NCBI RefSeq assembly: GCF_001275675.1
Contig: NZ_LITM01000005.1
Span: 539,863-574,133 of the forward strand
From: Lysinibacillus sp. FJAT-14745
GTDB lineage: Bacteria > Bacillota > Bacilli > Bacillales_A > Planococcaceae
Direction of reading: 5' to 3'
Length of the DNA: 34,271 nt
Part shown: piece by piece, positions 5,586 through 34,271 of the stretch
How positions within the stretch are numbered: position 1 is the stretch's first letter
How the letters are laid out: each line of letters starts with the position of its first letter
Program-made: the position numbers and the translations under genes
The notes under the pieces: model-generated
What the model saw: the letters and a program-made list of their open reading frames with translations, nothing else
The model's database searches: none
Told to the model about the DNA's origin: nothing

Positions 5586-5900
5586 GTAGTAGGTCCCTCA
5601 CAACTATTCATCTTTATTACACTTTAAGGAAGCTTCTAAAAGAATCCTTTACTCATCAAAAGTCCTTAAAGTTTTCACGATGTTTCTATTGTAAAATATC
5701 AGGCTACTACATTCAAGTTATGTAGTTACAATGGCAACCCAATGATTTGGGGAATACTTCAACAAGCTGACTATTTTCTATCTCATAGCGTGTTTGTATG
5801 TCCTATTTTATACATCAGTATGAGTATACAAAACAATCGGCTAAGCATACTAAATTATTGAAGATGCTCTGTTCACAGTGGTCTGATGATCTGCTTTGTC
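5586..5900. other. Intergenic region without a recognised gene
   Basis: AT-rich spacer between the nuclease gene and the repeat island. It should hold the nuclease promoter on the minus strand, but I see no convincing -35/-10 pair. No supported open frame or RNA gene was found. Confidence 0.5.
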
Positions 5901-6058
5901 CAACAAATGTTTTTTGTGCGAAAGCGAAGCGGCAGCAACAAATGTTTTTTGTGCGAAAGCGAAGCGGCAGCAACAAATGTTTTTTGTGCGAAAGCGAAGT
6001 GGCAGCAACAAATGTTTTTTGTGCGAAAGCGAAGTGTCAACGTAGCGGCAGCAACAAC
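5901..6058 (+). repeat. 35-bp tandem array, four units plus a partial
   Basis: Four head-to-tail units of exactly 35 bp (5901-5935, 5936-5970, 5971-6005, 6006-6040), each containing CAACAAATG, TTTTTTGTGCG and AAAGCGAAGCGGCAG, with a few substitutions in units 3 and 4. A partial unit follows to 6058. There are no spacers between units. 35 is not a multiple of 3, so the open frames that cross the array read the same peptide in several frames and are artefacts. The unit is related to the 37-bp unit at 1-74. Confidence 0.9.
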
Positions 6059-6088
6059 AAAAGCGGAGGAAACGCACGATGAATGCCG

Positions 6089-6172
6089 ATCGCTGATAAC
6101 ATCACGAAAATCGCTGATAAAATGCTGATAATCGCTGATAACATCATGAAAATCGCTGATAAAATCCAAGAA
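6089..6172 (+). repeat. 21-bp tandem array, four units
   Basis: Four 21-bp units beginning ATCGCTGATAA at 6089, 6110, 6131 and 6152. Units 1 and 3 are near identical and units 2 and 4 resemble each other, giving a 42-bp higher-order repeat. The period equals two helical turns. A different 21-bp array lies at 25731-25844. Confidence 0.85.
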
Positions 6173-6210
6173 TCGCACCCAGTCGGAACGAAAATCAACC
6201 CTCGTATTGC
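6172..6210 (+). repeat. Second copy of the array tail module
   Basis: Contains CGCACCCAGTCGGAACGAAA followed by ATCAACC, matching the tail after the first array (about 79-122) with few changes. Here the 21-bp array is interposed between the 35-bp array and the tail. Confidence 0.75.
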
Positions 6211-14430: not shown

Positions 14431-14545
14431 CGAGGGCCAACACGATGTCGGTCATTTCGGTAATGCCACAGGACGTGGCGTTTTTTACCGAGGGCCAACA
14501 CGATGTAGGTCATTTCGGTAATGCCACAGGACGTGGCGCTTTTAC
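14431..14545 (+). repeat. 58-bp direct repeat, two copies
   Basis: Copies at 14431-14488 and 14489-14545 differ at a few positions. Each contains CGAGGGCCAACACGATGT and the hairpin GCCACAGGACGTGGC nested within GGTAA/TTACC. A partial third copy (CGATGCAGGTCAGTT) follows. There is no open frame of gene quality, and 58 is not a multiple of 3. Confidence 0.85.
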
Positions 14546-15054
14546 CGATGCAGGTCAGTTAGCCGTTATCGCATGGATGCGATGATTTTAGGCTAACATC
14601 CTCTAAGCACTCCTTGCCGATTCAGTGACACTCGCCGGAGGCTTTAAATTATTTCAGCGGGTGTTTGACCAACCGCCAAAAAGTAAATTCATTTGTACCT
14701 GTCGCTTTGCTTTCTGTACAGAAAACATTTGCCTGAAATAAGTTAAATCATTGATACGGGCAATGCCGTAAATCTACCTTATATATAATAGTGTGTATTG
14801 TGCCTTTTCTGCAAACCCTTTTTTTACTACTTAGAAACCTACATCATTACCACTATCTAATTGGATAAATCTGCAGATGAATATTTCTATTTTCCACCTT
14901 TGCTGAATAAAAATGGCTCATCAACAAAAGTTGGAAATGAAATTTATTATACGCCTAAAAAAACCGCTACTTTACTATACCCTACAATCACTTTCTTTTC
15001 TGTTAACATGCTGTTAAGAAAAACTTATTACTTTACATAGAAAATAAAATGATA
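14546..15054. other. Long intergenic region without a recognised gene
   Basis: Part of the roughly 800-base gap between mgtE and yjbO. Apart from the 58-bp repeats and a diverged array-unit copy at 14690-14731, I see no gene, tRNA or riboswitch. It should contain the mgtE promoter (minus strand). Confidence 0.5.
14690..14731 (-). repeat. Diverged single copy of the array unit, inverted
   Basis: On the minus strand it reads CAAATGTTTTCTGTACAGAA then AGCAAAGCGACAGGTACAAATG. It aligns over its length with the 37-bp unit at 1-37, including the flanking CAAATG at each end. Confidence 0.6.
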
Positions 15055-21172: not shown

Positions 21173-21468
21173 TTAACTTTCTCTCGGATTAAACAAACTT
21201 ACTGTAAATAAATGCACAACCTCATCTATCATCTCATCAATATCCGGATTAATTTGCTCATTTAAATATGGTAATGTCAATTGGAAAACTAAAATTGACG
21301 ACAGCAAAGAATAGAAAAAATTAGCTGTATATTTAAAGTTCCCTTTTGGAATTTTTCCTTGCTCATGTAACTTAATTAAATAATTCTCTAAATGGTGCAA
21401 TAACTTATTTGGGTATTCAAAAAACATTTTTTCAAATTCTTTATCTTGTTGAATCTCACGCATAAGCA
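21173..21468 (-). CDS. TetR-family repressor, 3' exon (C-terminal ligand-binding half)
   Basis: Encodes the C-terminal part of the TetR regulator whose N-terminal half is at 23553-23853. Removing 21469-23552 as an intron gives 301+296=597 bases, i.e. 198 codons plus stop, with ETI followed by LLMREIQQDKEFEKMFFEYP, a plausible continuous helix. The exon alone has no ribosome site; an in-frame stop inside the element lies two codons before its first ATG. The sequence is undecayed up to the stop at 21173, with the terminator at 21117-21158 beyond. In a simple reading it is a gene fragment cut off by an insertion; the intron features make functional splicing more likely. Confidence 0.85.
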
Positions 21469-21680
21469 CCGATACGAAAAACATATACATTTCTTAAAAA
21501 ATGTAGACATCTCTACTGTGACACAACTTATATCTTCCGACTTTCGTATTTGTGTCTTCCTTATTCTCCGAGTCTGGTTTCGCAAAAAGCTACTGCCATT
21601 TTGTATGACTCTCCAAAGGCTTAAATTCCGCAGTATCGTTGCGTACACATCTAAGGTTTAGTGTCAGTTAAATTCCTTAG
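21469..21680 (-). ncRNA. Predicted omega RNA scaffold of TnpB at the element right end
   Basis: The non-coding right end downstream of the tnpB stop (plus the end of tnpB) is where TnpB guide RNAs (omega/reRNA) are encoded. It contains several short hairpins, including TACATTT/AAATGTA near 21480-21500. The guide would be the flank just beyond the element, here tetR from 21468 downward. This assignment is by position and family, not by sequence match. Confidence 0.5.
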
Positions 21681-22828
21681 ATTGAATAATTTGCCAAATT
21701 AATGCTTGCGTTCAAATCTCTATCCAACTTTAATCCGCAAGAGCAGATAAATAATCTGTCTTTCAGTTTCAAATTGGATTTGATTTGTCCACAACTAGAA
21801 CAAGTTTTTGATGATGGAAACCATCTGTCGGCTTCAATAAATTCAATTCCGTATTTTTGACATTTGTATTGTATTTGCCGTTTAAATTCATATAGCTTTT
21901 GCCCAGCTACCGCCTTCGCCAGATGTTTATTTTTCATCATACCTTTTACATGTAAATGTTCCATTACAATACGAGATGGTTTGGTTTTCACAATCTCATT
22001 AGAACACTGATGTAAATGATTTGTTCGGATGTCGTTAAGTCGCTTATATAAATTACGGATTGCAGTGTTTTGTTTTTGAATATTTTTCATATTCTTTAAA
22101 GGTGTTTTATAGATTGGCTTTCGGTTTTTAGTATACTCTTTCGTGTTGGCTTCGAGCTTACGAGCTTGTTTTCGTTGTTCTCGTTTCAACTTTTGCTCTA
22201 ATCGTTTGACTTCTTTTGTTTTGTTGATGTTCTTTTTGAACTTGCCATCAGAACAAACTGCCAATTTATTGATACCTACATCAATTCCTAAACTTTCGCC
22301 TGTCAAATCATATTGCTCAAATTCTTGCTCATATCCGATTGATAAGAACCAATTTCGTCCGTCAAATGAAATGCGTGGATTTGAATATTTCTGACCTTTT
22401 TTAAGCTTAGGAAGCGCTTTGCATGTTTTTACACTGCCAATCTTTTCACCTCTAAAACCTTCATTTGTTCGTTTTAAACTTTCGTAATTTACATAAAAAC
22501 TAACTTTACTTCTTCGTCTGCTTTTGAATCTTGGCTTTTCAGTCAAGCCTTCGAACCAACGCTTTCTAGCAATATCGGCATCTTTCACCGCCTGTTTCAT
22601 CACATTGCTTCCGACTTCCTTTAGCCATTTATGCGTCGTTGGTTTCAGTTCATTATTGATTTTCTTACGAATTTCGCTCTCTTTGACTGTACGCTTCTCG
22701 ACGTTATAAATACGTTCGCTTTCAGCCAAGAAATAATTGTAAGCCCATCTCGCAGTCCCCGCAGACTTCCAAAACAAAACCACTTGTTCTTTAGTTGGTT
22801 TTAGTCTTATCTTTATCGCCAGGATCAT
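21677..22828 (-). CDS. tnpB: TnpB RNA-guided nuclease (transposon-encoded)
   Basis: 383-aa TnpB (Cas12 ancestor). RuvC acidic residues are present: Asp183 (SLGIDVGINKLAV), Glu290 (IVMEHLHVKGM) and Asp371 (LDRDLNASINLA). The zinc finger shows C343/C346 and C362/C364. The N-terminal OrfB helix-turn-helix and the central Lys/Arg-rich helix are complete, so it looks functional. TnpB uses an RNA from the element's right end to cleave the element-free locus and so promotes retention. The ATG lies 38 bases inside the tnpA remnant, as in IS607 elements, with a GAGGTG ribosome site. Confidence 0.93.
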   Translation of the reverse strand: MILAIKIRLKPTKEQVVLFWKSAGTARWAYNYFLAESERIYNVEKRTVKESEIRKKINNELKPTTHKWLKEVGSNVMKQAVKDADIARKRWFEGLTEKPRFKSRRRSKVSFYVNYESLKRTNEGFRGEKIGSVKTCKALPKLKKGQKYSNPRISFDGRNWFLSIGYEQEFEQYDLTGESLGIDVGINKLAVCSDGKFKKNINKTKEVKRLEQKLKREQRKQARKLEANTKEYTKNRKPIYKTPLKNMKNIQKQNTAIRNLYKRLNDIRTNHLHQCSNEIVKTKPSRIVMEHLHVKGMMKNKHLAKAVAGQKLYEFKRQIQYKCQKYGIEFIEADRWFPSSKTCSSCGQIKSNLKLKDRLFICSCGLKLDRDLNASINLANYSI

Positions 22829-22965
22829 TGTTTTTCACCTCGTCAATCAATCGTTTAATTTTCTTTGACCGTTGACCGTAAAATCTATTGGCAAAAACCG
22901 TGACAATAAGTTACAACATTTACACCAACACGTTTAGCAAATTCCCCAATGGACATTAATTCCAT
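22791..22965 (-). pseudogene. Internally deleted IS607-type tnpA (serine recombinase) remnant
   Basis: The N-terminus MELMSIGEFAKRVGVN, from ATG 22965 behind AGAGAGGTGG, is the MerR-like DNA-binding start of IS607 TnpA; it reaches a stop after 26 codons. In the next frame the sequence resumes with VTVFANRFYGQRSKKIKRLI and ends at 22791, matching the C-terminal end of the family and overlapping the tnpB start. About 150 residues, including the catalytic serine domain, are missing. The element is therefore non-autonomous for DNA movement. Confidence 0.82.
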
Positions 22966-22972
22966 GCGTACC

Positions 22973-23018
22973 ACCTCTCTGTCACTATGATAAATTACAT
23001 TACCCTATTCAGAGAGGT
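22973..23018 (-). promoter_or_regulatory. Hairpin masking the tnpA ribosome binding site
   Basis: Perfect 9-bp pairing ACCTCTCTG/CAGAGAGGT around a 28-base loop. The 3' arm on the RNA contains the AGAGAGGT Shine-Dalgarno of tnpA. Read-through RNA from tetR would have this site sequestered. Confidence 0.65.
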
Positions 23019-23040
23019 TGTTAACATTTTTATAGTTGTA

Positions 23041-23552
23041 TATATTTTTCTTGTTCACACGAAGGCGCAACCCTTCATGCAGTCTTTCTCTCACGAGTAG
23101 ACCTCTTATGCTTTCACATAAGCGCAGACTATATCTTCATCTTATCTTTTAATAAGAGCCACATTTTTCTTCCGCCATTCGCTTGCGGTTTTACTCTCCC
23201 TCAAGGAGATAGTCGTTGAACGTCTTCCTTGTCTCATTAAGAGATTTAGGAGTTCGCTGCTAAACATCCATTGCCAAAGCACTTAGCGCTACCGTTTTCC
23301 GTTGTCACGATTACCTTTACGGACACTGAGTAATTTTTTTCAGCTTATGCCATCCTTGTTGTTTTTTCTGCTTTCGCACCGTTACGTCTGCCGTTTCCAG
23401 CTCCGCTTTGGTCACAAGGCTTTAGGAGTTAAAAGCAATTAACGCGGAGTTCGCACCAATCGCTTGATACGAAGGGTATTCTGTTATAAATTTATGCTTC
23501 TATACAGTTTTGTATAGTTTTGTCTAAATTTGTTGTAACAGTTTAGTTACCC
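23041..23552 (-). ncRNA. Group I intron ribozyme core of the IStron
   Basis: Minus-strand RNA. The R element GTTCAACGACTAT (23221-23209) and S element AAGATATAGTC (23137-23127) are the most conserved group I sequences and pair GACTAT/ATAGTC as P7. CTCC/GGGAG follows R as a P8-region hairpin; CTTATG/CATAAG (23122-23105) fits P9. P1: exon TATTT (23557-23553) pairs with GAATA (23481-23477), with U.G at the splice site. It is extended by nested TGTTA/TAACA, AAATTTA/TAAATTT and CTATAC/GTATAG stems. The 3' splice site lies 1.6 kb downstream after the tnpB gene, at G 21469. P3-P6 were not fully resolved by eye. Confidence 0.85.
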
Positions 23553-23853
23553 AAATAGTTTCCTTGACAGGAATGTTTTCTTCAAAATAAGCTTGCGCCA
23601 AGATTTTAAGATCATGCTCTATATCACCTGTAAACGCCTTTTCTATTTTAGGAAAATAATCTCTGTCTGTTTTATGTGAAATAACACTCTCACGAAACAA
23701 ATTCTCTTTATTTCCAAAGTGTCTAAAAAGTGTAATGTGATTCACACCTGCACGTTCAGCGATTTCGCGTGTCGAAGTTCCAGCAAAACCCTTTTCACCA
23801 AAAAGCGTCAAAGCAGCATTAAGAATTTTTTCTCTTGTCTTCAATTTTGCCAT
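23553..23853 (-). CDS. TetR-family repressor, 5' exon (DNA-binding half)
   Basis: Encodes residues 1-100 of a TetR regulator: the HTH region TREKILNAALTLFGEKGFAGTSTREIAERAGVNHITLFRHFGNKENLF is complete. It follows the MFS pump gene by about 80 bases and has its own promoter with an operator-like site and a GGAGGAGAGAGGG ribosome site before ATG 23853. Without splicing, translation runs nine codons into the intron and stops (109 aa), giving a DNA-binding domain without dimerisation core. With splicing it joins 21173-21468 to give 198 aa, a normal family length. It probably represses the pump and itself; the ligand is unknown. Confidence 0.88.
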
Positions 23854-23891: not shown

Positions 23892-23920
23892 ATTATATCG
23901 GAATTAGAAAGTGATAGCAA
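23892..23920 (-). promoter_or_regulatory. tetR promoter
   Basis: On the minus strand TTGCTA (-35, 23920-23915), a 17-base spacer and TATAAT (-10, 23897-23892), between the pump stop and the tetR start. The -35 overlaps the operator-like site at 23917-23933. Confidence 0.65.
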
Positions 23921-23933
23921 TCAGTTGCATTCA
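23917..23933. promoter_or_regulatory. TetR operator-like site at tetR
   Basis: GCAATCAGTTGCATTCA matches 16 of 17 bases of the palindrome upstream of the pump (25688-25704, GCAACCAGTTGCATTCA) and overlaps the tetR -35. Confidence 0.65.
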
Positions 23934-23934
23934 A

Positions 23935-25623
23935 TTAACGTTCCACTTCAAAGTTTCGTTCTCTTATATATTTCTTCATTCTTCTTGCATTTATGCCATT
24001 CAAATATGCAAAAACAGCACCAATTAACATGACAATTGCTCCAAACCTAAAAACTGCTTTATATGCTAAGGAAATATGGTCCTTAATTATTTTTTCTATA
24101 GCTGGATAAAGACTTATTATTTCCTCTCTTTCAATGGCAAAGCTCTTCTTAATTTCAGCATGTGCGTTATCTGGTGAAGATTTTAATAGTTTTTCCTCTT
24201 CGTCAGTTAGCTTATGTAAAACATCCTGTAGTGACGATTTATTTGCTGTTAACTCATTTTTCTCTTTATAATTTTCAAATTGAAGCTTTAGCTTTTCCTT
24301 CGTATTATCACTAAGTTTACTTATCTCAATCTTTTCGATCATTTCCTTTTTTGCCGTTATCATTTCGTTCTGCATCATATGCTGTAGCATCACTACTAAA
24401 ATTGCCACGCCAACCGCAGCACCAATTACTCGGCTTACTTGAAATAACCCTGATGCAATCCCAGCCTTTTCTTCTGGAACCTGCAAAATAAGCGCTATTG
24501 ATAATGGGCTAAAAATTAAACCAGATCCTAAACCGACAATCATTAAAACTCCGACAATAGCCCAAACCGACTGATCTGGTGAAATAAAACCTAACAAGTA
24601 AGTTCCTATACTAAATAGTACATAACCAATGACACCAAACCATAATGTCCCCCATTTATTCGCTTTAGCTGCAAGAGGTGTAATGAGCATTGTCGCTATA
24701 GAAGATGAGCTAAGAATTAACCCCGCCTGTATCTGAGAAATTCCTTTTACTGTTGTTAAATAAAATGCCATTAAAAAGTAGACACACATCATACCGATCC
24801 CTAAACATAACAATGCGATATTCCCACTTGCAAATTGATAGTTTTTAAACAACTGAACTGGAAGCATTGGGTCTTTATTTTTTGATTCAATCATTACAAA
24901 AAATAGTAAGCCTATTACACTGCAAATTAGACAACTAAGAACAAGTGGTGATGACCATCCAACTTCCTTCACTTGTAAAAGCCCATATATGAGTGCAAAC
25001 AATGAAATACTAATTGTAATCATACCCATCCAGTCGATCTTCTTAGAAGCAGTAGGATCATACGATTCATGTACAAAAGTATAAATTAAGGTTACTGCTA
25101 TAATCCCTATTGGTAAATTAATATAAAATATCCACTGCCATGCAAAATACTCTGAGATTACTCCTCCAATTGTCGGTCCCAATGCTGTCGATATCCCTGC
25201 CATAATTCCAAATAGCGCCGTTACAATACCAACCTTTTCATTCGGAGTATGAACAAGTACTAAAGGAACACATACTGGAACAATCATTGCTGCAGCCAAA
25301 CCTTGAATCGCACGAAATAAGATTAATAATTCAATAGATTGCGATATTCCACAAAGAACTGACGCAACTACAAACAAAATAAGCCCTATTTGAAATATTT
25401 TCTTCCTACCAAATTGATCTGCAAATCTAACCGCCGTTAACAAAACAACACCAAATGCAATGTTGTAGCTATCGACAACCCATGATATTTGATCAATTGT
25501 AGATTCATAGTATGCCGTAATTTTTGGCAAAGATACATTCACAATTGTAGTATCCAATAAAGCCATAAAAAAACCTAGAGCCGCAGCAATTACCGGCATC
25601 ATATAACTTTGTTTACCTTTCAT
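23935..25623 (-). CDS. DHA2-family MFS multidrug efflux pump (14 TM)
   Basis: 562-aa drug:H+ antiporter of the EmrB/QacA type. Motif D1 (LDTTIVNVSLPKI) is in TM1, motif A (RFADQFGRKKIF) between TM2 and TM3, and motif C (GPTIGGVISEYF) in TM5. The length and hydrophobic pattern fit 14 TM helices. A hydrophilic, Lys/Glu-rich, probably coiled loop of about 90 residues (about 425-515) precedes the last helix. It exports amphipathic or cationic drugs across the membrane; the substrate is unknown. The promoter carries the 40-bp palindrome, and tetR follows on the same strand. A GAGG ribosome site precedes ATG 25623. Confidence 0.93.
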   Translation of the reverse strand: MKGKQSYMMPVIAAALGFFMALLDTTIVNVSLPKITAYYESTIDQISWVVDSYNIAFGVVLLTAVRFADQFGRKKIFQIGLILFVVASVLCGISQSIELLILFRAIQGLAAAMIVPVCVPLVLVHTPNEKVGIVTALFGIMAGISTALGPTIGGVISEYFAWQWIFYINLPIGIIAVTLIYTFVHESYDPTASKKIDWMGMITISISLFALIYGLLQVKEVGWSSPLVLSCLICSVIGLLFFVMIESKNKDPMLPVQLFKNYQFASGNIALLCLGIGMMCVYFLMAFYLTTVKGISQIQAGLILSSSSIATMLITPLAAKANKWGTLWFGVIGYVLFSIGTYLLGFISPDQSVWAIVGVLMIVGLGSGLIFSPLSIALILQVPEEKAGIASGLFQVSRVIGAAVGVAILVVMLQHMMQNEMITAKKEMIEKIEISKLSDNTKEKLKLQFENYKEKNELTANKSSLQDVLHKLTDEEEKLLKSSPDNAHAEIKKSFAIEREEIISLYPAIEKIIKDHISLAYKAVFRFGAIVMLIGAVFAYLNGINARRMKKYIRERNFEVER

Positions 25624-25665: not shown

Positions 25666-25691
25666 ATAAAGAAAAAATAAAATGAATGCAA
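25663..25691 (-). promoter_or_regulatory. Promoter of the MFS pump
   Basis: On the minus strand TTGCAT (-35, 25691-25686), a 17-base spacer and TATAAT (-10, 25668-25663). The -35 lies within the large palindrome. Confidence 0.7.
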
Positions 25692-25713
25692 CCAGTTGCA
25701 TTCATTTTATTTT
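25674..25713. promoter_or_regulatory. Main TetR operator: perfect 40-bp palindrome
   Basis: Two perfect 19-bp arms (AAAATAAAATGAATGCAAC and complement) around CA. It covers the -35 of the pump promoter and shares its core GCAACCAGTTGCATTCA with the site at tetR. It resembles a terminator in shape, but its position over the promoter and the repeated core favour an operator. Confidence 0.7.
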
Positions 25714-25730
25714 AGATTAGGCTCTATATA

Positions 25731-25844
25731 TTTATCGGAATGTTCTAGTGATTTATCGGAACATATTAGTAATTTGTCGGAACGTTTCAGCGATTTATCG
25801 GAACGTTTTTAAGTTTTATCGGAATACTTCGTTGTTTGATCGAG
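25731..25844 (+). repeat. 21-bp tandem array, five to six units
   Basis: TTTATCGGAA recurs at 25731, 25752, 25773 (TTTGTCGGAA), 25794 and 25815, exactly 21 bases apart, with a decayed unit near 25835. It lies upstream of the pump promoter. Confidence 0.85.
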
Positions 25845-25861
25845 ATTTATGACAAAATAAA

Positions 25862-25900
25862 AGAAGCGCCACTATCCTCGACAGATAGTGACGCCTCTTT
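25862..25900. terminator. Strong intrinsic terminator without an adjacent gene
   Basis: Arms AGAAGCGCCACTATC and GATAGTGACGCCTCT (nearly perfect) around CTCGACA, with A-rich and T-rich flanks. The pepF terminator is about 250 bases away and no gene lies between. Confidence 0.75.
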
Positions 25901-26146
25901 TTCACAAAGGGGATGGGAGAAATGTTCACGTTCAAACAAAGGGGTGTATGTTTGTTTTGTGATTTATTTCACATGAATCACTTTATCATGGAATAGTAAA
26001 TATAGCAATAAACCCAATGGTAGATTCACAAATTTGTCAAATAGAAAGCGATTACAAACAGTATTTTTTCAAGATACCCACTTTTAAACATTTAGAAATC
26101 AAAAAAAATCATTATTCTTTAAATTTTATCATTCAACTCATCATAG
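25901..26146. other. Intergenic region without a recognised gene
   Basis: Spacer between the orphan terminator and the pepF terminator. A small inverted repeat GTGATT/AATCAC occurs near 25960-25982. No supported open frame; an unannotated small RNA ending at 25862-25900 is possible. Confidence 0.4.
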
Positions 26147-30866: not shown

Positions 30867-31479
30867 ACTGACACATCCTTTCCATTTAATCATTATCTAT
30901 AAACCAGTGTGTGTGTTAAATTAGAATTAATGTAATGTAATCTACATACCATTATACAGTACTCTGTGATGTTTGAATATAGTTCCAATAAAAAAAAGAA
31001 TAACCCTATCACACGAAATTTTCTGTCTATTTATATAACTTTTCAAAGTAGTTACTTCTTGGCTTTTCTAATGAACTACTAATAATATTCCCATTCGTAG
31101 TGCATTTTAAACACTCATTTCTTAATTGTTCTTGTTCTCATTTAAAAAATTTAAACGAGAATATTGTCAGTTCAGTGTGTACAATATAGACGTATATTTA
31201 CTAATATTGGTTGCATTTTCAAATAAATAACTCAGCACCATAACGTGTGGTTAATTTCCGTTCCAGCTGGGCGCTTTCCTGACGTGCTGAATGGAGAAAA
31301 AAAGCAGCAAAATCAGCATATAATTTTTTTTCGAGAAAGAACACCGCCAAAAGTCTGACTTTACGCACTTGCTTTTCACCGAGCCTTTATAATATAATTT
31401 TTTGCAATCAATCAATTATGTCTTTGGTGAGTTCACCTCATCTATACAGATGGAAGACAATTATTGAACTAAAAAAAAA
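30867..31479. other. spx-trpS divergent intergenic region
   Basis: About 600 bases without a supported gene. It should hold the divergent promoters; a TATAAT at 31388-31393 on the plus strand could serve the trpS leader, though without a good -35. It contains the inverted tail-module copy at 31236-31277. Confidence 0.45.
31236..31277 (-). repeat. Third copy of the array tail module, inverted
   Basis: On the minus strand it reads AAAGCGCCCAGCTGGAACGG then AAATTAACCACACGTTATGGTG, matching the tail at about 79-122 at most positions. No tandem array accompanies it. Confidence 0.75.
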
Positions 31480-31741
31480 CGCTGACGAAGAGTAGTACTT
31501 ATGCACTTTACACGTTTAGAGAGTCTGTGGTTGCTGCAAACAGATCGTGTAAGCATTTGGAATGGACTTCCGAGTTAGCTTTGTGAACGTCTTAGTTTCC
31601 TTACTGGAGTCTATTAGCAAAGCTCGTCCCTTCACGTTACGAAGCAAAGTGGCCTTTTTAGGCAAGCTGGGTGGTACCGCGGATTCAAACATCATTCGTC
31701 CCTTCATTAGAAAAACTAATGAGGACGCATGATGTTTTTTA
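31480..31741 (+). promoter_or_regulatory. Tryptophan T-box riboswitch leader of trpS
   Basis: Classical T-box leader. Stem I starts with the AGAGAGTCTG motif (31519 on); the specifier codon is TGG (Trp) at 31563-31565 in GGAATGGAC. The T-box sequence GGGTGGTACCGCGG is at 31669-31682, and the terminator is at 31687-31741 (AAACATCAT ... ATGATGTTT with inner CATTAG/CTAATG, then T6). Uncharged tRNA-Trp binding would form the antiterminator and allow trpS transcription. Confidence 0.95.
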
Positions 31742-33983: not shown

Positions 33984-34271
33984 GTGCGAAATGTTCCTAG
34001 TTTAAATAGAGGATGGTTACATCTCTCTGGTAAAGGCTAGGCAATTCCTTTTGGAACTGAAGGATTATATCGAAGAAGCAAATGAAGAGGTAACGCTCGG
34101 AAGGGTTCTCTCTTAGTCGAATAGCACTTGATTTAGTAAGAATGATGGTGTTATAAGCTCGGCGAAAAGGTGTGAGAAATTACCGTACCAGTTTGGCTGA
34201 CGAAAGCCTACCTGCGGGGGTGGTGTAAATCATGATGCTTGAGTTGAATGAATATGGTGAGAATGCGAATG
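33984..34271 (+). other. Probable 5' end of a group II intron (truncated by the window)
   Basis: Begins GTGCGAAATG, matching the group II 5' consensus GTGCG/GTGYG directly after a hairpin. The remaining 290 bases are structured, purine-rich and without a long frame, with domain-I-like segments (GGTAAAGGCTAGGCAATTCC, GGAACTGAAGGATTATATCG, GAAGAGGTAACGCTCGGAAG). No reverse transcriptase is visible; it would lie to the right of the window. Confidence 0.6.

Follow-up and report, generated by a model that had tools for sequence, protein, structure and literature searches.

A group B IStron interrupts a tetR gene beside an efflux pump in Lysinibacillus, with predicted restoration of the repressor by intron splicing

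Group B IStrons, as described in the sections of a 2014 survey cited here (PMC4227781), occupy targets that end in GG, start with U, end in CGG and contain a long AU-rich stem of 15–34 bp. An IS607 open reading frame (ORF) A and an IS605-like ORF B follow a GAACAA-type motif, ORF A is commonly degenerate, and the P1 helix of the intron has a U-G pair followed by an internal loop. According to the same sections, 118 of 202 insertion sites are intragenic, the interrupted genes include a drug or metal transporter and a transcriptional regulator, and the copies of one element are generally more than 93% identical. BcISt1 of the Bacillus cereus group was found by reverse transcription PCR to be spliced in vivo after G, and a further group B member, LsISt1, is listed for Lysinibacillus sphaericus in Table 1 of the survey. 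RAGATH-18 RNA is presented in the cited portion of PMC11061315 as the scaffold of the guide RNAs of IS607 TnpB proteins, including ISFba1, for which RNA-guided cleavage is reported. Here we analyse a 34,271-nt stretch of Lysinibacillus sp. FJAT-14745 (contig NZ_LITM01000005.1; hereafter the window), in which a TetR-family gene on the minus strand, running from 23853 to 21173, is interrupted by an element of this kind and lies beside a DHA2-type efflux pump gene. The element is an IStron whose intron quite probably splices out of the tetR transcript, which would restore a TetR protein of 199 amino acids (aa).

23550 to 23853, minus strand: tetR 5´ exon, codons 1–101 and the first base of codon 102, target GGG included
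21469 to 23549, minus strand: group B IStron of 2,081 nt, TAAC...CGG
23050 to 23549, minus strand: group I intron spanning P1 to P9.2, with the GAACAA motif at 23055–23050 as its end
22828 to 22965, minus strand: TnpA remnants
21677 to 22828, minus strand: tnpB, an open frame of 383 aa with RuvC-type D/E/D motifs
21557 to 21619, minus strand: RAGATH-18 RNA, just downstream of tnpB (67.8 bits, gathering score 44.9)
21173 to 21468, minus strand: tetR 3´ exon, the remainder of codon 102 through the stop

The ends of the element can be read directly from the sequence. The junctions in the window are ACTATTTGGG/TAAC...CGTATCGG/TGCTTATGCG, where the insertion directly follows TTTGGG and splits the Val codon 102 of tetR at a GG-ending site, without target duplication. 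For comparison, 32 Lysinibacillus genomes were used (G labels, G000 being the genome of the window; L labels denote extracted loci). The tetR 3´ exon was matched in six of them, own genome counted. G030 and G022 carry an uninterrupted tetR with the site ACTATTTGGG/TACTTATGCG and the protein segment ETIWVLMREI, G023 and G031 hold only broken pieces or remnants of the gene, and the match in G029 is weak (34%). The empty insertion site in the orthologues of these two related species (L017 and L018) reads ATTTGGG/TACTTATG. The 5´ exon with its flank is identical to these orthologues at 334 and 335 of 351 bases, and the 3´ exon is 91–93% identical; its second base is G in the window and A in both orthologues, which encodes Val either way. 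The GGG at 23550–23552 belongs to the exon rather than to the element, because both natural uninterrupted orthologues keep it.

These empty sites correct the initial annotation of the locus, which had recognized an IStron and predicted that its splicing restores tetR. Both proposals are well supported, and the two orthologues do align across the site; the proposed junction and splice site lie three bases off. The element had been drawn as 2,084 nt from 21469 to 23552, a boundary that we reject since two empty sites contradict it, and the predicted product is not 198 but 199 aa long and retains the Trp, as in the L018 orthologue of the same length. The division of tetR by an element with group I intron core sequences was recognized correctly, with TetR_N matching upstream (68.4 bits in 23524–23853, minus strand), TetR_C_7 matching downstream (27.0 bits in 21173–21490, minus strand), and the core strings R and S and an Intron_gpI match between them. 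The element is indeed sense-oriented relative to tetR, both lying on the minus strand.

Several features place the element in group B. Its first base is U and its 3´ end is CGG, its ORFs are located after the GAACAA-type motif, and in the predicted fold an AU-rich stem (-30.7 kcal/mol), built of consecutive runs of 14, 2 and 8 pairs, links the two ends. Although tnpA and tnpB had both been annotated as genes, only tnpB is an open frame. Three-frame translation resolves tnpA into an N-terminal piece, MELMSIGEFAKRVGVNVVTYCHGFCQ followed by a stop, and, in a different frame, a C-terminal piece; these remnants gave no Pfam match and do not form a working gene, and an intact tnpA is rejected. TnpB matches NF040570 guided_TnpB with 277.4 bits (cut-off 100) as well as OrfB_IS605 and Cas12f1-like_TNB, and its RuvC residues D183, E290 and D371 were assigned by motif, without alignment. 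Its closest relatives are found in L. xylanilyticus (91–93% identity). Elsewhere in the window's own genome, 11 PF00239 matches mark serine recombinases. The RAGATH-18 RNA at the 3´ end of the element had been overlooked. At this end, ATGs occur in the reading frame of the tetR 3´ exon (MYMFFVSVLMREI...; 21173–21490, minus strand), as similarly in L012 and L024, and no evident ribosome-binding site precedes them in this interval of the window.

The element resembles several described systems. With BcISt1, as characterized in the cited sections of the survey, it shares the GG-ending target, the U start, the CGG end, an IA2-type intron, and a degenerate ORF A with an intact ORF B; the likeness is one of description only, and BcISt1 differs in host genes and sequence. 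LsISt1 agrees in genus, group and size class (PMC4227781, Table 1). A locus of L. sphaericus 2362 (L101), which from species and layout we infer to be LsISt1 itself, has the same layout with RAGATH-18, but its TnpB is only 45% identical and its intron match covers only 123 nt at 71%. The candidate identity of the window element with LsISt1 is rejected on this TnpB divergence, and the two are apparently distinct. The TnpB of ISFba1-type IS607 elements is comparable in its length of about 385 aa, the RAGATH-18 that follows it and the RuvC D/E/D motifs, whereas the reported target-adjacent motifs are AGGAG or GAGGG and the window flank is TTGGG (PMC11061315). In a term search of the cited portion of that article, neither IStron nor group I intron came up.

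The intron itself is recognizable by model, by comparison and by fold. The covariance model to which the initial annotation had looked for confirmation, Rfam Intron_gpI (RF00028), does match 23105–23476 on the minus strand (E=3.3e-10), although its 47.0 bits are below the gathering score of 50, and the match is therefore missing from the default Rfam scan. The model gives 50.1–52.0 bits for L012, L024, L026, L138, L139 and L144, which reach the gathering score, and 43.7–48.4 bits for L025, L028 and L101; L137, L140–L143 and the masked L013 and L014 miss it, and no match at E<=1e-3 is listed for L044 and L080. The R and S strings were confirmed, and their GACTAT and ATAGTC halves are able to pair as P7. 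The core is IA2-like, with P7.1, P7.2 and P9 to P9.2, and the fold also contains P1, P2, P9.1 and P9.2. The predicted P1 is GGGUA/UACCC followed by an internal loop. In the window core, the single private change in P3 (A-U to G-U) preserves pairing. Three further group I intron matches were observed in the same genome (G000:C21:65066-65365, C9:111179-111402 and C26:32601-33751; best 85.5 bits).

Paired-base changes were counted in an alignment of 18 intron cores, 17 of them distinct, over 34 pairs in P3, P4, P6, P7, P7.1, P7.2 and P9. The bases are paired in 98.3% of the 578 cells, and sliding the partner by 1–3 columns lowers the pairing to only 36–55%. Both sides have changed in 12 of the 34 pairs, including four of six in P3, compared with 5.3 ± 1.4 in shuffles (0 of 500 as high). 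P8, checked sequence by sequence, forms 5–8 bp of differing sequence in 18 of 18 cores and was excluded from the column-wise count owing to register shifts between relatives. The window row is one base out of register at the 5´ side of P6 and loses pairs there. The alignment excludes L032, L033, L036, L042, L043 and L052, in which the search pattern had no match to the P3 5´ strand, and L013 and L014, which contain masked bases.

Further support comes from other copies. An intron core query matched in 16 of the 32 genomes. Seven of these (G000, G001, G013, G019, G024, G030 and G031) together contain the window's element in 15 copies; the other nine have only short matches, of 36–37 nt in seven and, in G016 and G025, of 123 nt at 71%. 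Both ends are readable in 14 copies from six genomes, the copy in G013 running off its contig. L144, whose 3´ end lies past the contig, and L044, whose 3´ end is unchecked, stand outside the 14, and L013 and L014 are counted among them for ends and phase. All 14 are preceded by TGGG, start with TAAC, end with CGTATCGG and keep the UACCC of P1. BLAST also supports the ends of L012, L013, L014, L024, L025 and L026. The 14 copies occupy 14 different genes, always in the sense orientation and with agreeing exon phases. Random insertion on TGGG sites, 53 of 95 of which are sense-genic in the window (56%, by a gene list of our own choice from its reading frames), would give this result with a probability of about 3e-4.

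Besides tetR, the host genes belong to the families LplA-B_cat, LuxS (both exons), DUF1294, Lactamase_B, FAD_binding_4 with ALO, amidohydrolase, Aminotran_5, DUF1292, PEP_hydrolase (both exons), Peptidase_M14 with LysM, Aconitase, Peptidase_M20 and Peptidase_M32. Exons were searched separately: 20 of 26 pieces were searched and 17 matched. Among these 20, the L142 3´, L024 5´ and L012 5´ pieces gave no family match, and these three genes are therefore named from the other exon. A full-length tnpB frame is present in four of the 14 copies, absent from nine and masked in one. The copies that lack it keep the ribozyme core where unmasked, and RAGATH-18 scores above the gathering threshold in 14 of 14. 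The four IStron copies of the window's own genome hold its only RAGATH-18 among the matches listed. L137, L139 and L140 (about 700–715 nt), L142 and L138 are small IStrons that have no tnpB and keep ribozyme and RAGATH-18. In them, the guide-RNA scaffold may be retained for a TnpB acting in trans or because it has a function in splicing.

That the intron is functional in this lineage is strongly, if indirectly, supported. In the proposed course of events, an IStron of the IS607 type entered codon 102 behind TTTGGG; tetR would then be transcribed and the group I intron would fold within the transcript, its internal guide UACCC pairing with the exon GGG and the intron UA. Splicing, initiated by guanosine, would occur after the last G (GGG/UAAC ... 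CGG/UGCUU) and create the ligated junction ...ATTTGGG/TGCTTATG..., which encodes the normal 199-aa TetR with its Trp. Splicing one base later, after U in the ordinary group I style, would shift the frame. An unspliced transcript would give a protein of 109 residues that contains the DNA-binding part and lacks the C-terminal part. In the same scheme, TnpB would take as its guide the first ~20 nt of the tetR 3´ exon (21449–21468). An uninterrupted tetR would be its target, since the guide would come from tetR exon 2, with TGGG as the neighbouring motif, and TnpB could cut uninterrupted alleles beside TGGG and thus keep the element in place.

A probable target of the repressor is the gene upstream of tetR, which shares its strand.

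23935 to 25623, minus strand: DHA2 (EmrB-type) major facilitator superfamily efflux transporter (TIGR00711, 318.6 bits, cut-off 230.2)
25674 to 25713, no strand assigned: long palindrome before the pump, core 25684–25703 GAATGCAACTGGTTGCATTC, an operator candidate
23913 to 23932, minus strand: imperfect copy of the core before tetR, with 2 mismatches (0 matches expected in shuffles)

The core at the pump immediately precedes a TATAAT that lies in front of the gene. At no more than 2 mismatches, the core occurs in only three of the 32 genomes, which are those holding the pump (E<=1e-120), and nowhere else in them; in G030 the copy at the pump alone is within this limit, the one before tetR differing by 3 mismatches. 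At 3 mismatches, one extra unrelated place each appears in G000 and G022, and a reversed control pattern of the core gave no match. Genomes that keep the pump therefore also keep tetR and the core, that of the window by way of the interrupted gene; over three genomes this co-retention is suggestive only. TetR domains beside an EmrB-type pump, with a palindrome common to both genes, are the arrangement of a TetR-type repressor of a DHA2 pump, and the uninterrupted TetR orthologue reaches no NCBIfam equivalog cut-off. The palindrome may be a TetR operator, through which TetR would probably repress both the pump and itself. One point against this role is that the pump palindrome is listed as terminator-like in the promoter scan; the copy before tetR lacks such a T run. 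A promoter-like site before tetR (TTGCTA-17-TATAAT, 23920–23892) counts for little because the scan found 16 such sites and 17.6 were expected. In G030 (L105), the distance from the palindrome with its TATAAT to the pump start exceeds that in the window by about 270 nt, and owing to this insertion the L105 row of the pump-upstream alignment is uninformative.

Several observations weigh against a spliced and functional tetR. The Intron_gpI score of the window falls short of the gathering threshold. P7 is invariant across the 18 cores, and further pair types are no more numerous than in shuffles (115 of 500). Since 12 of these cores differ little from that of the window element, the covariation signal comes mainly from the six divergent cores L144, L044, L101, L028, L038 and L080. 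The first intron U is paired with A in the predicted P1, rather than with G as the survey describes for group B. The ends of L137–L143 were found by searching for a pattern modelled on the ends expected. The window-private changes in the tetR exons, which comprise 10 synonymous and 6 replacement changes with zero stops or frameshifts, indicate weaker constraint than the 23 silent and 6 replacement changes between the two uninterrupted orthologues. These private changes show constraint, not the timing of the insertion, which may be too recent for decay of tetR to be visible.

A recent insertion that splices poorly or not at all, so that tetR is effectively lost and the pump constantly on, is accordingly the first alternative, and we regard it as unlikely. 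The sub-threshold Intron_gpI score and the tetR remnants of the relatives G023 and G031 would fit such a loss. Those two genomes, however, have neither the pump (E<=1e-120) nor the palindrome core. In the window, the intron core is intact and its private P3 change still pairs, the tetR exons are open and mostly conserved, and both palindromes are retained. Sister copies also reside in genes such as luxS and the aconitase-family gene.

Two related proposals give the element a regulatory role. In one, there may be a contest in which each tetR transcript either splices and yields TetR or becomes a tetR-bearing guide RNA and yields none. Efflux would then depend on the outcome, and pump expression could be set by how much TnpB is present, by the supply of guanosine or magnesium and by the growth state; the guide would cleave uninterrupted tetR and fix the arrangement. 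We consider this version a long shot. The more general proposal, a switch in which variable splicing, perhaps contesting with guide-RNA formation, sets the levels of TetR and efflux, appears very improbable. In its favour, RAGATH-18 and the 3´ splice site share the same 3´ end and have the downstream exon in common, and a 2024 paper in Science reportedly describes a conflict between such introns and guide RNAs. Copies in 14 unrelated genes of six genomes are instead what is expected of a merely tolerated element. Splicing before GGG, at the boundary of the initial annotation, would also keep the frame, for a 198-aa protein without Trp, and would place a U at the end of the 5´ exon (ATTT) as in ordinary group I introns, but it is extremely improbable because both orthologues have GGG at the empty site, all 14 copies have it in their target, and BcISt1 splices after G (PMC4227781).

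The locus is less novel than first stated. Drug-transporter and transcriptional-regulator IStrons were reported in 2014 in the cited sections of the survey (PMC4227781), and the tetR IStron is therefore a well-supported new case of a known kind. An IStron in tetR was not found in the titles and abstract starts among the matches listed for IStron with efflux, luxS or Lysinibacillus and for TetR with self-splicing group I introns, a scope that lies outside the survey's Supplementary Table S1 of insertion sites. The locus offers a natural test site, in which a repressor with a candidate operator is interrupted by a ribozyme and promoter activity could serve as a readout of splicing; were splicing variable, a selfish intron would determine the level of drug efflux. 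The lipoate-ligase, luxS and DUF1294 genes of the same genome also contain copies, which allows one element to be compared across several settings.

These copies have features of their own. L013 (G000:C25, ~45,511–46,893), without full tnpB, splits luxS between SPMG and CQTGFY, so that synthesis of a quorum-sensing signal would hinge on splicing. L012 (G000:C28) lies in the lipoate-ligase gene. L014 (G000:C29) is located directly behind the start codon of the DUF1294 gene, where the 5´ exon is merely ATGGG behind a likely ribosome-binding site.

Other features were observed around the locus. The region upstream of the pump contains, at ~25,715–25,850, several imperfect repeats of GTTCCGATAAAT... 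spaced by about 22 nt, and an RsaE/RoxS small RNA lies on the same strand as the pump (25863–25972, minus strand, 84.5 bits). Farther away, the window contains two Bacillaceae-1 RNAs (14437–14607, minus strand), a T-box leader (31473–31706, plus strand, 129.5 bits) and, at its edge, a group II intron D1-D4-5 match (34057–34251, plus strand, 95.3 bits). A repetitive stretch at 5798–6178 is open in several frames on both strands, with repeated FCAKAK and MFFVRKRS.

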